A stretch of DNA of 64,000 nt, from positions 186,001 to 250,000 of the forward strand of contig NZ_AP022810.1 in NCBI RefSeq assembly GCF_009731355.2, in the 5' to 3' direction. The position numbers and the translations under genes were made by a program. The notes beneath the pieces were generated by a model, which did no database searches, had not been told where the DNA came from, and saw nothing but the letters and a program-made list of their open reading frames with translations. Positions within the stretch are counted from its first letter, which is position 1. Every line of letters begins with the position of its first letter. Source of the DNA: Desulfuromonas sp. AOP6 (GTDB taxonomy: Bacteria; Desulfobacterota; Desulfuromonadia; Desulfuromonadales; SZUA-540). Below are positions 4,328 to 44,019 of the stretch, in pieces.

Positions 4328-5340
4328 CCCAGCATCTCCCGGCGGCCGGTACGGTAAAGCACGTCCAGCATGCTGGCGTCATCCTTGTCCAGCAAATTTC
4401 TGAGGTCGACGCGGCTGGAAAAAGAAGACAGCTTTGGCCATTCCCGACCCAGATCGAAAACCGCGTTGTCGTCTAGTTCGTGATTGAGCAGCGGCAGCAG
4501 GTAGGATGGGAGCAGCGGCCGGAAAAAGAGGGTCAGACTGGGCTCGCTCTCTGCTGTTCCTTCACTCCAGAAGTAGTGAGCCCGCCAGAAGCGATCCTCG
4601 AGGATTGATTCGACCATTTGGACCCAAAAGACAACCGAAGCTGTTTGTTCCTGCGCGGGTAAGGGCAGGCGTATGCCCCAGTGGGTCCGGCTGGCCCCGC
4701 GCTGCAGGACGGTTTTCAAGACGTTGTAGAAAGTCTGCCAGAACTGTTCGCGATTCTCCTTGGCAATAGGTTGCCGCAGCCCGTTCCAGTAGTGTCCCAT
4801 CGTCAGCTTGTCAAAGCCGCGTATCTGGCTTTCGAGCAGTTCGCGTTGTGTCAGGGCCGGGTTTTCAAAGCTTTTCTGGTCCAATTCGCCTAACAGTTTG
4901 GCCAGCGCGACATTCTCACGCTGCAGGTGCACCGGATTGTCACCGTAGTCGAAGCAGTGGTCGAAGACAAAAGGCGCTGTAGCCCGATGTCCGTGCAGTA
5001 GCGGCGCGGGGGCCACCCATAGCAGGGCAAAGGGATAGATACGTCCGCTCTTGTCCTGGCTGGCGCGCAGCGTACCAATCAGGTTGTGCTCCTGTTCGCC
5101 CCCGGTCAGGACAAAATGAAGCCGGGCAAATTGACGGTATGCGGGCGGCCAGCCTTTTGGATGCAGGCGCGTGATGGTGCCCACCCCTTCTTGCAGCCAC
5201 TTTTCGAACGCGGTGGTCTCGCGGCAGCAGAGGTTGTGGCGAATGAAATCGCCGTGAAGGGGCAATTTGCCGAAGCAGGCCGTACGCAGCCGAGACGACG
5301 GGTTGATGTTTGCCCTCGTCTTTTCAAACAGTCCAAACAT
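4324..5340 (-). CDS. tagF: T6SS-associated protein TagF
   Basis: The 338-residue protein has the TagF/SciT (DUF2094) N-terminal signature: CFGKLPLHGDFIRH, then FEKWLQEG and a GRIYPFALL segment, within the first 120 residues. In Pseudomonas and Agrobacterium TagF represses T6SS assembly post-translationally, often opposed by a kinase/FHA pathway. It sits between tssM and tssA and overlaps tssA by 4 bases. The roughly 200-residue C-terminal part beyond the TagF core is not recognised. No PppA-type phosphatase domain is apparent. Confidence 0.88.
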   Translation of the reverse strand: MFGLFEKTRANINPSSRLRTACFGKLPLHGDFIRHNLCCRETTAFEKWLQEGVGTITRLHPKGWPPAYRQFARLHFVLTGGEQEHNLIGTLRASQDKSGRIYPFALLWVAPAPLLHGHRATAPFVFDHCFDYGDNPVHLQRENVALAKLLGELDQKSFENPALTQRELLESQIRGFDKLTMGHYWNGLRQPIAKENREQFWQTFYNVLKTVLQRGASRTHWGIRLPLPAQEQTASVVFWVQMVESILEDRFWRAHYFWSEGTAESEPSLTLFFRPLLPSYLLPLLNHELDDNAVFDLGREWPKLSSFSSRVDLRNLLDKDDASMLDVLYRTGRREMLG

Positions 5341-5352
5341 GGAGGAGCCCTG

Positions 5353-8300
5353 TCAAAAAATAGTGGCCGGCAGCCGGAAGTCTGAGAACAGGCCGCTGAC
5401 GAAGATATTGCTGTCACGATCGGGGCGAAGTTTGAGCTGAACGGCCAGGGTGTGGCCCGGAGCCGATTCCAGATCCCAGGCCAGCATGTAGCCATCGGGG
5501 TCGTTGGTGATTCGCGCCTGTTTGAGCAGATGAAAGAGGCTCCAGTCGCCGGCGAAGTCGAGCTTGCCGAGCGCGCGATTGCCACTGGTTGTCCCGCCGA
5601 CGACAGCAAGGGGCATCTGCTCATCGCCGGGCCACTTGAAGTGCCGCCATTCCTGAGGCTCGTTTTGGTAAATCATCTGCTGTCCGCTGGCTTCAAAGCG
5701 CACCATGCGCAAGCCGCGGCTAGGAATGGGGTAGATGGAAAAATGTACGTCCGGATGGTTTTGCCCCTGCCTGAAGAGACCGGAGCTGATCTGCGATGCC
5801 TGGGTCAGGGAGCGCAGCAGAGAGGGGTTGAGTTTGACGCCGATCCCAAGCCAGGACTTTTCTGCCCACTGATGACGTTTTTTCCGCAGAAAGGGTTTGA
5901 GCTGTTCGTCAGTGAAGCTCCAGATAATGCCGTTGTCCGGACGAAAGAAGTCGGAAACGTCGTTAAGTGAGGCGTCAGAGCCAGTAAGGCTGAAGGGAAA
6001 CCGGTCGACAATCTTGCGTTTGTAATGAAGGAAAACCGTGCTGTTCCATTGGTTCTGCAGATAGTTCCGGGTTTGCTCAATGGTCATCAGCCAGGCCTGC
6101 TGAATCGGATTGGTAAGAACCTGCTCGGCCACCTTGCGGGTGCGGGCTTCAATGCCGTTGAGAAGACTTTTGGTGGAAAGCCAGCATTTGTACAACTCCG
6201 AATCGTTGGCGCCGCTGCCGCCCAGAATGCTGGCCGCATAGTGAAAACAGTCCTGCTGAACATCAATGGTGGCGGCCAACTGCTCAATTTCCGCTTGAGC
6301 CGAGGTCAGAGCCAGCAGGTATTGATTGATCAACAGACTGGTGTTCATTTTATCGCCGGCATCTGCGAGTTTGCGCAGGTCATGCAGGGGCGCCTCCAGT
6401 TCCGGCACCAGACTGCTTTCCCGGGAACCTGAGAAAACCTGAATCTCTTTACTTTCCGAAAGGTTGATATTCCTGGACACAACTTGCATGAGCTCGGCGA
6501 TGGGCCCATCGTTGCGCGCAAGGAGCAGCATCTTCTTGCTGGCATCGTCCAGGGAACGGAAAGGATCCAACCGGGTTTCTTCCAGCATTCTGAACCAGTG
6601 TTCCGCGTATTCAGTGAAGTAGAGGCCGCGGATTTCCCGCTCTAACTGGCGGGAAAGTTCTTCATTCACAAGGTTTGAATCGGTGCTGTCATCCGTTGTC
6701 TGCAGGTAGCCGGTCACCCAGTCGCCACGGCTCGCCAGGGCGACAAGGTCCTGTATTTCTGCTCGAGTGAATTCGTACCAGCCCTTGGCGGTATACATAA
6801 AGGGGACCGCATGGGCACTGCTGAGAAGACCACGCCCAGGCCCTTTAATCATGTCCTGCAGGCCGAGATCACGGGCCTGCAGCCTGCCCTTGTTGCGGAT
6901 CTGCGCATACAGCCGTTTGGGGTCCGGCAGGGCTTTCAGGTAGTTCTGAGCCTCAACCACCAGGGCCTGATCCACCTGACGTGCCTCCACAAAGTCCGGA
7001 TGATCCTGGGGAACCTGCATGTGTGAGAGGTAGGTTCGCAGCAGGACTTCGAGATCTCGATTGTTTTTTTCTTTAACGGGTTCGTCGGCGCTGGATTCCG
7101 GCAGCCTTTTTTCCAGGCGCGACAGGAGGATTCTCGTCGCTTCATCAAGGTCAAGGCGGTCCGGACGGTTGAGCATCAGGTAGGCTTTGAGTCCATCATA
7201 GTAATCGTCGCGAATGGCGTCCTGACGTTTGGCCGACGAGGCGAGCCACTGCTTGCCGTAGGTGGCCAGTTCGATCTCGAGGTCGTCCAGGGCCGGCTGA
7301 AAGAACAGGCGTTCGAAGGACCCAAGCAAGAGGGAGCGGATTGCCGGAAGTTGCCTGTCCCCTTCATAGACGCCCATTGTCAGAGAGATGGGGAGTTTTT
7401 CCTCATACGCCTTGAGCTTCTGGTAGTGCCGCAAAACCTCGGTCAGGGCAGAAAAACGCTCCGAGGGGGCAGACTCTTTCGCTTCGACCACATCGGCAAG
7501 ACGTTCGGCGGCCACATCCCCTTTTTTCAGCAGCAGAGTGTTGGCGGTCAGGGTAGTGCTCAGCAACATGATACTGCCGGCAATCAGGCCGAGACAGCCG
7601 ACGATACTGGCTGTTTTCAGGGTGCGGTTTATGATTCCCGATTTTTTGGTGCGGCTGACATCCTGGGCATTGGGAAAGACGACGGACTGAAAGAAGTTTT
7701 TGACAAAGAAGCTGGTGGACTCGGGAAGTTCCGTGGCTTCTCTGTCTTCGACAAAGCCGAAAGCCTGGCGCATTTTTCCCAGGATTTTTTGAATGGGTGT
7801 TCCCTCCTGGGTGGCACTCGTCAGGTAGATGCCGCAGAAGTTGGGCGTATCCTGGTAGGGATTTTCCTTGGTCAAGCGGGTGATGAAATCGACCAGCCGG
7901 TTTTGGGCGGCCTCGAATTGACCGGGAAAATCGAAGAGCTCGTTTTTGGCTTGAATTTTACGTACGAGAGACAGCTTGTACAGGCGCATTTCGGTCAGGC
8001 GGCGGTGCAATTCCCCCATTTTGGTGCGGAAGAGGTCGCCAATGTTCTGCGGTGCCTCGTGGCCCAGCCAGCAGCCCCAGACCTGGTCCCGCTCTTTGTC
8101 ATCGAGATCGGCGAAATAGGAGGTGAAGCCATGCAGGAGGTCGCATTTGGTAAATACGACATAAATGGGAAAAACGCAGCCAAGGCGGGCGGTCAGTTCA
8201 TCAATGCGATCCCGGATGATTTTGACATGCCGCTCGATTTCCTGGTTGTCGGCAGTAAGCAAATCGGCCAGACTGATCGCCACAATGGCGCCGTTAAGGG

Positions 8301-40520: not shown

Positions 40521-40597
40521 CGGGGCGTAGCGCAGCCTGGTAGCGCACCTGCTTCGGGAGCAGGGGGTCGAAGGTTCAAATCCTTTCGCCCCGACCA
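40521..40597 (+). tRNA. tRNA-Pro (anticodon CGG)
   Basis: A 77-base cloverleaf with CCA encoded. Acceptor stem CGGGGCG / CGCCCCG, anticodon stem CCTGC / GCAGG around the loop TTCGGGA, and T arm GGTTCAAATCC. The 3' part lies in a 94-bp sequence repeated at 42224-42317. Confidence 0.97.
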
Positions 40598-40641
40598 ATA
40601 ATCATAAAAGGCACCTCCATCATGGGGGTGCCTTTTTGATT
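40548..40641 (+). repeat. 94-bp direct repeat, copy 1 (att-like, in tRNA-Pro)
   Basis: The copy begins at the anticodon stem of tRNA-Pro and runs through the gene end and its terminator hairpin (AAAGGCACC ... GGGGTGCCTTT). It matches 42224-42317 at all 94 positions. The pair encloses the AT-rich island in the way attL/attR sites enclose an element integrated at the 3' end of a tRNA gene. Confidence 0.93.
40605..40637 (+). terminator. Terminator of tRNA-Pro
   Basis: The hairpin AAAAGGCACCTCC / GGGGGTGCCTTTTT follows the tRNA by a few bases and ends in a T run. Confidence 0.85.
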
Positions 40642-40855
40642 TTCAAGTTTGAGGTGCCCCTATGAGCGCCTCTGGTCCATATCCGGTCTAGGGGTGTTTT
40701 CATTTTCCTGGTTGGAGAGAACTATGGTGCATCAGTTGGAAGTTCCGATCCTACGATTTGCCTCTGGGGCGGCTCCGGGGTGGCAGTTATCTTTTAACTA
40801 CCTCAATCTAGTTATTCTCATTGGTTGTGACATCATGATTTAGATTATTTTAAGT

Positions 40856-40884
40856 TTGACATGAAATTATAAAAGATATATTTA
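40856..40884 (+). promoter_or_regulatory. Sigma70-like promoter of the riboswitch transcript
   Basis: TTGACA (40856-40861) is a perfect -35 box. A -10 box TATATT (40877-40882) or TATTTA (40879-40884) lies 15-17 bases further on. Transcription would begin near 40890, at the first base of the riboswitch P1 stem. Confidence 0.65.
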
Positions 40885-40891
40885 CAAAGAT

Positions 40892-40969
40892 ACTTCGAAA
40901 AGAGCAAACCCGGAGCAATCCGGTGACGCAAAGCCACGGGCCAGATGCTGGTAGCCGGGTTGCCGAAGT
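40892..40969 (+). promoter_or_regulatory. GEMM-I cyclic-dinucleotide riboswitch, possibly GEMM-Ib (cGAMP type)
   Basis: All core elements of the GEMM-I aptamer (RF01051) are visible: closing stem ACTTCG/CGAAGT (40892-40897 with 40964-40969), the AGAGCAAACC strand (40901-40910), and a hairpin CCGGA-GCAA-TCCGG with a GNRA tetraloop. The conserved GACGCAAAGCCACGGGCC and GGTAGCCGGGTTGCCGA also follow. The base at the position that reads the first guanine of c-di-GMP (G20 in Vibrio Vc2) appears to be A (40903). That is the mark of cGAMP-responsive GEMM-Ib riboswitches known in Geobacter relatives. My alignment at that position is by eye. Confidence 0.92.
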
Positions 40970-40982
40970 GGGGGAATTGTGC

Positions 40983-41012
40983 GCCCATCTTTGGCCAAAG
41001 ATGGGCATTTTT
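40983..41012 (+). terminator. Rho-independent terminator, riboswitch expression platform
   Basis: A perfect 24-base inverted repeat (GCCCATCTTTGG / CCAAAGATGGGC, 40983-41006) followed by ATTTTTG. It begins 14 bases after the aptamer, a position suited to ligand-controlled termination. No alternative anti-terminator pairing was worked out. Confidence 0.88.
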
Positions 41013-41183
41013 GTGTTTATGCCCAGCGGTTTGGTTTGTTTGTGAACCATATTATATATTCTTAGCTGCCAGAAGGTACACCTATCCAGTCTTAGTGGGG
41101 CGGAAGGTTGAATATGTGCTTTACATGAAAATAATTTTGTACTTATTTGGTTGTATTGACAATTTTATTGCTAACAAATGTGT

Positions 41184-41213
41184 TTGATGATTGATTTTAT
41201 GGATATTTATAAT
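41184..41213 (+). promoter_or_regulatory. Possible second promoter downstream of the riboswitch
   Basis: TTGATG (41184-41189) and TATAAT (41208-41213) are separated by 18 bases. It would start transcription about 150 bases before the orphan gene, independent of the riboswitch. In such AT-rich sequence a match can arise by chance. Confidence 0.35.
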
Positions 41214-41368
41214 TTTATACTGAGTTGTCTTTTAGTGCTTTTAACTACATTCTGTTGTTTCATAAATAGGCATAAATATGTTGATAATTTACAATAATAT
41301 GTGAATCAATAGTATTGATTGGATCGTCCATAATGGTTGAAATTAATTTATTATCAAGGAGGAGTTTT

Positions 41369-41914
41369 GTGAAAAAGTTTTTAATTATTATTATTCTGCT
41401 TTCGATGAATGTGTTTGTACCAAATCATGCTTGCAGCGAAATCAAGGATGCCAGTATCAAAAAATTAGTCAGAGAATTTCAAGAACAAGGATTCAAAACT
41501 TGTTCCGAAGAGTTAGGGAATGCGTTTGATTTTGTTGTGGACGGAGGAAATTGGAATGTTGCACAACGTTGGTCAACTGACAATACTGATCAAAAGCCTT
41601 ATTATTTATATTTTATAGTACATGGTAATGACAAATCATATTCTAAATCTGGAACCGTTATTATGACCAAAACTTCTAACGGAGAGTGCTGGGGTGAATA
41701 CACTAATACAACAGTCGTTCCTAATATAAGTTGTAACGATTACATACAGAAAAGTGGATTTACAAAAAATAACGGCTGGGATATAAAAATACGAGGAAAA
41801 AATGGAGATGGTGGCGAGTACATGATCATGGATGTAGATAGTTCATCTTTATTGAAATTTATTCTTAATGACTCTCCTGTTGGTTGTGTCTTTACAAAAA
41901 CAGAAATTTTGTAA
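41369..41914 (+). CDS. Orphan secreted protein in the tRNA-Pro island
   Basis: The 181-residue protein has a Sec signal peptide (KKFLIIIILLSMNVFVPNHA). A mature part with five cysteines and many Asn, Ser, Lys and Tyr residues follows. It is not recognised. The GTG at 41369 follows a strong AAGGAGG site, while the longer ATG frame would place residues before the signal. Base composition is strongly AT-rich, unlike the rest of the window, which points to recent transfer. It is the only convincing gene in the island and lies about 400 bases after the riboswitch. The first mature Cys (HAC) is not a good lipobox. Confidence 0.72.
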   Translation: MKKFLIIIILLSMNVFVPNHACSEIKDASIKKLVREFQEQGFKTCSEELGNAFDFVVDGGNWNVAQRWSTDNTDQKPYYLYFIVHGNDKSYSKSGTVIMTKTSNGECWGEYTNTTVVPNISCNDYIQKSGFTKNNGWDIKIRGKNGDGGEYMIMDVDSSSLLKFILNDSPVGCVFTKTEIL

Positions 41915-42223
41915 TTTTTTATTAAAAACAAAAATGTTTTATTGTAATAGCTTAAATTTTCAACAAATATCAGTTTACTTGCAATTATGTGTGATCAATC
42001 AAAATCCGACATAATAGTTCAATATTAGACGGTCATACATTTGGAACCGACCCTCACTTACGAGTAGAATCTACCGAGAAGCTTGGGGCAGGATGGTGGT
42101 GGCAGGTGACTGGTAAGTATTTTTTTAGATGAAATGGGGAATTCCACTCGGAAAGGTCTATTGGGGGACGTCATTCTGGTAAGTAAACGTACTGAGGAGC
42201 GAAGCGAAGCTGAGCGTACTCGT
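41915..42223. other. AT-rich tail of the island, no gene seen
   Basis: About 300 bases between the orphan gene and the second repeat. The first half is AT-rich. The last 100 bases have a composition nearer to the chromosome. No integrase, excisionase or transposase remnant could be recognised on either strand. Confidence 0.5.
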
Positions 42224-42317
42224 CCTGCTTCGGGAGCAGGGGGTCGAAGGTTCAAATCCTTTCGCCCCGACCAATAATCATAAAAGGCACCTCCATCATG
42301 GGGGTGCCTTTTTGATT
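42224..42317 (+). repeat. 94-bp direct repeat, copy 2 (tRNA-Pro 3' fragment)
   Basis: Identical to 40548-40641: the anticodon arm to the CCA end of tRNA-Pro plus the terminator. The 5' half of the tRNA is absent, so this copy is not a functional tRNA gene. It marks the far end of the island. Confidence 0.93.
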
Positions 42318-43445: not shown

Positions 43446-44019
43446 CATATTCTCCAGAACCTCGGGAACTACCTCGCCGTTAGCTATCTGTCTACCTCTA
43501 CACAAAAGTCTGTTTGCGATGTCCAGAATCTGAAAAATCCGTTCCCTTTTAGACTTTACTCCACTTGATGACTAAAATTTAAATTTGCAAGCACCTCATA
43601 TCCTCTAGATTTGAATCTCTCTAATTTTATGTGAATGTATCAGCCGAATCCCCATTGGCAATGGAGGAAATTGCTCTTTTATCGGGCAGGAAATTTCTCC
43701 TCTGCAAAAGGGCGGGTTCATTCTGATTAAAAATACAGGAAATTACTCGGCCTCCTGTTAGTTTCCGGCGGCGGCGAGACAGGATGATGACTGGATATTT
43801 TTTGTTGATTTGATAGAAACAAAGGAGGTGTCATCGGAATTCCCCGCATCCTTGGAGATTTTTTCTACCCTGAATAGTAGCAGTTGTCTCATTGCCGCCG
43901 CCACGTTGGCTGGTATTGTTGAAGACAAATGATATTGGTCATTTACAGGTTTTTAACCCTGGTTTCCGGCAGTTTGTGAAGTTTTGCCACAAACCGTTCC
44001 GGGGGGGAAGGAGTCGAAA
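43446..44019. other. Intergenic region without recognisable gene
   Basis: About 570 bases of mixed composition following the cytochrome remnant, with short repetitive AAATT-rich stretches near 43660-43740. It may contain more decayed sequence and the promoter of the downstream lipoprotein gene, but no -35/-10 pair stands out. Confidence 0.4.

Follow-up and report, generated by a model that had tools for sequence, protein, structure and literature searches.

In GEMM-I riboswitches, A at base 20 marks the GEMM-Ib class, which binds 3',3'-cGAMP, while G at this position indicates the reading of c-di-GMP. The cGAMP riboswitches are described as ON switches in PMC6456294 and PMC9262584 and are predicted to be ON in PMC9481103. 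According to PMC9262584, the terminator of the pilM cGAMP ON switch includes a strand of P1 (the A strand), and in Cd1, a c-di-GMP-I OFF switch of Clostridioides difficile, the terminator consists of T and H strands and the antiterminator of A and T strands. OFF polarity for cGAMP riboswitches was not found described in our literature search, the scope of which did not extend to Kellenberger 2015 and Nelson 2015. As to the enzymes, PMC8835794 and PMC6456294 give as the rule for Hypr proteins that Ser replaces Asp at a diagnostic position of the GGDEF domain.

We analyzed a window of 64,000 nucleotides from the one-contig genome (3.27 Mb) of Desulfuromonas sp. AOP6 (NZ_AP022810.1, positions 186,001 to 250,000). 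All window features given below lie on the + strand, except for the islet, its right end, the promoter-like site at 41184-41213 and the stretch at about 43589-43634, which are given without a strand. In our main reading, for which we estimate a probability of about one half, a GEMM-Ib-type switch is carried on an integrase-less tRNA islet and uses an antiterminator platform, such that its cargo would be OFF at high ligand levels.

The islet lies at a tRNA-Pro (CGG) gene that serves as the integration site (40521-40597 according to ARAGORN; Rfam tRNA at 40521-40594). Repeat comparison revealed a 94-nt direct repeat at 40548-40641, containing the 3' part of the tRNA and its terminator, that is 100% identical to a second copy at 42224-42317, and ARAGORN finds the whole tRNA at the left copy only. 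The islet, bordered by these repeats, is 1,676 bp long, and the DNA between them (40642-42223) has a GC content of 0.365, as compared to 0.574 for the window. In a congener (G001), the tRNA and its terminator continue directly into the homologue of the window DNA found past the right repeat, presenting an empty site. With perfect repeats of this length, the case for the transferred island proposed in an earlier note, made from the sequence alone, is stronger than that note had it, and acquisition of the islet at tRNA-Pro(CGG) is well supported by these borders. The congener also holds, 5.3 kb downstream, a relic of the islet right end together with a worn 3' fragment of the tRNA; the right end (42076-42223), extended into the right repeat as far as 42273, is 87% like this relic over 198 bp (L038, 7103-7299), and elements with this right end were therefore probably present at the locus more than once. 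Beside border repeats derived from the 3' end of the tRNA and the empty site in a relative, a third mark of tRNA islands, an integrase gene inside, was not found between the repeats, where the longest ORF is that of the orphan gene described below (199 aa if the first possible start codon is used) and the remaining ORFs are of 80 aa or less. For a pattern of 35 nt from the 3' end of the tRNA, viral_contigs contained no exact match, and when the islet DNA was searched against 136 genomes of the order, the matches listed were the islet itself, the right-end relic of the congener and matches to the riboswitch stretch.

Two further observations concern this integration site in relatives. In a second congener (G002), the tRNA site is followed by additional short copies of the 3' end of tRNA-Pro (L039, 3772-4064), which are perhaps the scars of other insertions. 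In G001, a GEMM-I is found beside the same tRNA (L038, about 4488-4578, minus strand), before a gene for a di-haem cytochrome c peroxidase (CCP_MauG), and the aligned stretch of the window (about 43589-43634) is without both.

The cargo of the islet is a single gene at 41369-41914, encoding 181 aa from a GTG start to a TAA stop, with a ribosome-binding site (AAGGAGG) at 41356-41362, a GC content of 0.333 and a GC3 of 0.27. An open stretch of 182 codons was not seen in any of 2000 shuffles of 41016-42039, such that the AT-rich gene pointed out in the earlier note is a real open frame. Its N-terminus, judged by eye, contains a candidate signal peptide, and the product may thus be exported. No family was assigned to the protein in Pfam, PHROGs, PADLOC or NCBIfam at E values up to 10, and no match was found among PDB sequences (E up to 10), in a tblastn search of plasmids and phages (E up to 1) or in viral_contigs and genome_contigs, where the pattern-based search used reveals close relatives only. 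The gene was detected in one of 136 genomes of the order, namely its own. Across 395 genomes of the phylum, a search at E ≤ 0.01 gave matches in three, these being its own genome and two others whose E values (0.0053 and 0.0067 per genome) are at about chance level for that many genomes. An AlphaFold2 model made without an alignment had a mean pLDDT of 35.3 and was useless. The gene is hence an orphan with no credible relative.

The earlier note had itself cautioned that distance and an intervening promoter speak against a link between the riboswitch and this gene, and both points hold. The start codon of the orphan is found about 400 nt past the aptamer, as compared to 31-208 nt for the presumed genes behind the other six GEMM-I sites of the genome (with L195 counted with two possible starts, 136 and 152). 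GC content falls from 0.475 (40856-41015) to 0.295 (41016-41368) just past the terminator, and the best promoter-like site between the leader and the orphan (41184-41213) agrees with the consensus at 10 of 12 positions, being one of 15 such sites in the region, as compared to 6.1 ± 2.3 in shuffles. All of this would fit a history in which the leader, be it working or a relic, had lost its own gene and the orphan had been added separately, with its own promoter and independent of any ligand, an explanation that we consider less probable than our main reading. However, promoter-like sites arise easily in AT-rich DNA, and the leader is intact in every part. Moreover, the terminator scan found no further terminator-like site on the + strand between 41006 and 42230, and read-through from the leader could therefore reach the orphan. 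Judging from these features, control of the orphan by the riboswitch is possible and would involve one long transcript, from the leader through the orphan.

The aptamer (40894-40968) is complete, as the earlier note had claimed, with both Rfam models exceeding their cut-offs. RF01051 (GEMM-I, c-di-GMP-I) yields 65.2 bits against a cut-off of 35, with positions 1-87 of the 87 in the model covered, while in a cmscan of the window RF03167 (c-di-GMP-I-GGC) yields 59.5 bits (E 1.6e-11), barely above its gathering threshold of 59. P1 consists of six perfect pairs between the P strand (40892-40897) and 40964-40969 (folding, letters checked), the P2 loop is GCAA and P3 is whole. In the RF03167 alignment, the equivalent of G20, directly 5' of the first P2 pair, is A (40903; letter checked), as had been read before; the G that would indicate c-di-GMP reading was not found at this position of the window aptamer. 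The cGAMP idea thus survives the test set for it beforehand, in which an alignment placing G at the ligand-reading position was to count against it. The first base 3' of P2 is also A (40930; alignment, letter checked), and both of these A residues replace Gs of the RF03167 consensus pocket, from the letters of which the name GGC presumably derives. The base directly 5' of the P1 3' strand is C (40963; alignment, letter checked), and we take 40930 and 40963 to be A47 and C92 in the numbering of Vc2. In PMC6274999, A14, A41 and C75 of a cGAMP riboswitch are all listed as ligand-binding, and A40903, A40930 and C40963 occupy these three places. The window switch is, by its sequence, of the GEMM-Ib type, and cGAMP binding is predicted.

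The genome contains seven GEMM-I sites (L001 to L007), with base 20, taken at a fixed position in fragments, being G, A, A, A, C, G and G, in that order, and the window site being the third. Across 23 compared aptamers, base 20 is A in 13, G in nine and C in one, and at the 13 loci nearest in DNA to the window aptamer (L070-L082) it is A in 10 and G in three. Of the two further A20 sites in this genome, one (L002) lies upstream of a CHASE4-PAS-GGDEF-EAL protein, and A20 sites of this type are kept in the genome and in both congeners (L193, L199 and L200), before homologous GGDEF-type signalling proteins; the homologous proteins of G001 and G002 were compared by eye, and that of G001 looks shorter near the N-terminus. 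The remaining one (L004) lies upstream of a lipoprotein-like gene with a weak match to Lipocalin_4 (E 2.3e-5). The site with C at base 20 (L005; G000:C1:1137077-1137166, minus strand) has a worn P2 and is followed by a 710-aa frame 93 nt behind. In the viral collection, the degenerate GEMM pattern has a sole match (L192, about 8005-8090 of the putative viral contig IMGVR_UViG_3300006428_000005), a candidate GEMM-I with A at base 20 that is followed by a terminator and then by a gene with a signal-like start.

As for the ligand supply, 25 GGDEF matches were counted in the genome, and most contain the ordinary Asp at the Hypr-defining position. Ser is found at this position in two, L063 and L066, and the GGDEF motif is kept only in the former. 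The active-site stretch of L063 has as its best PDB match 6d9m (E 6.4e-26; next match 1.5e-15), which, from the entry title, we take to be the GacA domain of G. metallireducens. L066 (G000:C1:1030524-1030835, minus strand) is a GGDEF-family domain in which the motif is degenerate (GGDDY), reminiscent of GSU1937, a GGDDF enzyme mentioned in PMC8835794. Elsewhere, L057 contains Asp together with GGDKF, and on reading the sequence of L067, no GGDEF motif was found. In relatives, Ser together with GGDEF was found in the best match of each of 20 genomes read, including the genome itself (the match of a 21st genome was left out). With a Ser-type GGDEF in the genome and in these best matches, cGAMP is plausibly made by the host, as is predicted from a Hypr-type GGDEF.

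It should be noted that A20 by itself does not prove the exclusion of c-di-GMP, as a natural aptamer with a similar pocket change, reported in PMC9481103, bound c-AMP-GMP better, perhaps with a slight loss for c-di-GMP, and still bound c-di-GMP. The window aptamer might thus sense c-di-GMP as well as, or instead of, cGAMP, which we consider less likely. In favor of this, binding of c-di-GMP can persist in both natural and made A20 pockets according to the same paper, the omcST riboswitch is sensitive to both ligands according to PMC6456294, and ordinary Asp prevails among the GGDEF matches of the genome. Conversely, the aptamer and most of the nearest loci have the established GEMM-Ib mark, A at base 20, and the genome appears to encode a GacA-like Hypr enzyme. 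We infer the identity of the ligand from these data as cGAMP.

The earlier note had placed a promoter before the aptamer, and this stands in part: a perfect TTGACA is present at 40856-40861, and the -10 is weak, with candidates, judged by eye, being TATATT (40877-40882, spacing 15) and TATTTA (40879-40884, spacing 17), so that 40856-40884 is a probable leader promoter that is absent from the output of the consensus scan. The perfect terminator hairpin of that note is found by the terminator scan as a 10-bp stem at 40983-41006 with the loop GGCC, followed by the U-rich tail ATTTTTGTGT (40983-41015 in all). This terminator is separate from the aptamer and starts 21 nt past the start of the A strand (40962-40972), which in computed folds has two alternative partners, P within the aptamer and T (40983-40995) within an antiterminator. 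T comprises the terminator 5' arm and loop, to which the P1 3' strand GCCGAAGUGGG is complementary, and C40963, the C that contacts the ligand, becomes part of the antiterminator.

In computed folding, the A:T antiterminator hairpin has an energy of -17.0 kcal/mol, as compared to -14.2 kcal/mol for the terminator. Minimum-energy folds of the growing RNA present P1 first, the antiterminator at 40996 and P1 together with the terminator at 41008, and shift again at 41020 and 41023, past the U-run. When the RNA ends at the T strand, the antiterminator is favored over P1 by 5.6 kcal/mol, whereas in RNA extending through the U-run the competing states are within 1.6 kcal/mol of each other, such that kinetics would decide. 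The window platform looks to be of the antiterminator kind; as this layout resembles Cd1 and differs from pilM, the ligand is predicted to favor termination (OFF). The sign of the switch is what we infer from this layout. The cGAMP-type reading of the earlier note is consistent with A20, the Hypr GGDEF and the tRNA islet, and the antiterminator platform is absent from that note.

The A:T pairing of the window was equalled in 44 of 2000 dinucleotide shuffles and in six of 2000 plain shuffles, as well as by 42 of 18282 14-mers of the window. We further considered 49 GEMM-I sites, of which seven are from the genome itself, 13 are those nearest in DNA, 28 came from a family search and one is the site beside the G001 tRNA. 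A separate terminator was found at 35 and an ON-like layout at three, while no terminator was found at two and no A strand at nine. The complementary motif CUUYGG is found in the terminator 5' arm or loop at 25 of the 35 separate GEMM-I terminators of the host's order, as compared to three of 254 terminators without a preceding GEMM-I, drawn from the window and from loci of relatives (two more were set aside); the Fisher test value for this comparison (7e-25) overstates the certainty, since the GEMM-I sites are related. When the sites were tested singly, A:T pairing reached p ≤ 0.05 at only 14 of the 35 (nine of 18 with A20, four of 16 with G20 and the one with C20). Here, it should be considered that the A-strand anchor is far from the expected place at L168, L182 and L184 (L182 alone belonging to the 35), and that the hairpin selected at L004 seems to be wrong. 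When A and T strands were exchanged between sites, in a set of 32 (the 35 minus L004, L173 and L186), the mean pairing weakened, with only 14 of 5000 permutations being as good (119 of 5000 with A20 sites alone and 634 of 5000 with G20 sites alone). On the other hand, at least eight of the other 31 T strands would be better partners than its own for the A strand of the window. The OFF-type layout is not special to A20 and is shared by GEMM-I sites elsewhere in the order. In G001, the GEMM-I next to the same tRNA, which has G at base 20, was called ON-like by the same test, which thus can separate the ON from the OFF layout. That the ligand turns expression of the window switch ON, as the cGAMP switches described or predicted in PMC6456294, PMC9262584 and PMC9481103 and the near-equal energies of the full-length states might suggest, is improbable, as the ON type (pilM, in PMC9262584) has the A strand within its terminator whereas the window terminator is separate and pairs through its 5' arm with A, and as the ON-like call in the congener tells the two types apart.

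In the reading that we prefer, transcription would begin just 5' of P1. With little ligand, the P1 3' strand, including C40963, would pair with the emerging terminator 5' arm to form the antiterminator, and RNA polymerase would continue toward the orphan. When 3',3'-cGAMP (or c-di-GMP, should the pocket not be exclusive) occupies the A20 pocket, P1 would be held, the terminator would form and the transcript would end near 41015, such that the cargo would be expressed while ligand is scarce and shut off when it is abundant. The combination of an OFF-type layout, as modelled here, with an A20 pocket was unexpected. More tentatively still, a mobile islet that lacks an integrase may link a single exported cargo to the cGAMP network of the host through an OFF riboswitch, the cargo then being produced at low cGAMP only, and A20 sites with OFF-type platforms would be common in the order. 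Provided that the sign is as predicted, cGAMP would act as a repressor of some genes in the order while it activates genes for metal respiration in Geobacter, and one messenger would divide a regulon in two directions. The kept A20 site before GGDEF-type proteins would then represent direct down-regulation by cGAMP of a c-di-GMP system protein. Moreover, acquired cargo would here be tied into the second-messenger signalling of the host by its own leader RNA, a riboswitch on a tRNA islet.

In comparison with known systems, the islet resembles tRNA-integrated islands in having repeats derived from the 3' end of the tRNA, a low GC content, an empty site in a congener and a relic of the same end elsewhere, and differs from them in being of 1.7 kb, with no integrase-sized gene and with one cargo gene behind a riboswitch leader. 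With Cd1, as described in PMC9262584, the window switch shares a terminator made of T and H and, as predicted, an antiterminator made of A and T; Cd1, however, senses c-di-GMP, whereas the window aptamer has A at base 20. The Geobacter GEMM-Ib switches (pgcA of G. sulfurreducens and pilM of G. metallireducens) share with the window site a GEMM-I aptamer, A20, an intrinsic terminator and a host with a Hypr GGDEF, and while these are ON switches according to PMC6456294 and PMC9262584, the window site is predicted to be OFF and is carried on a tRNA islet.
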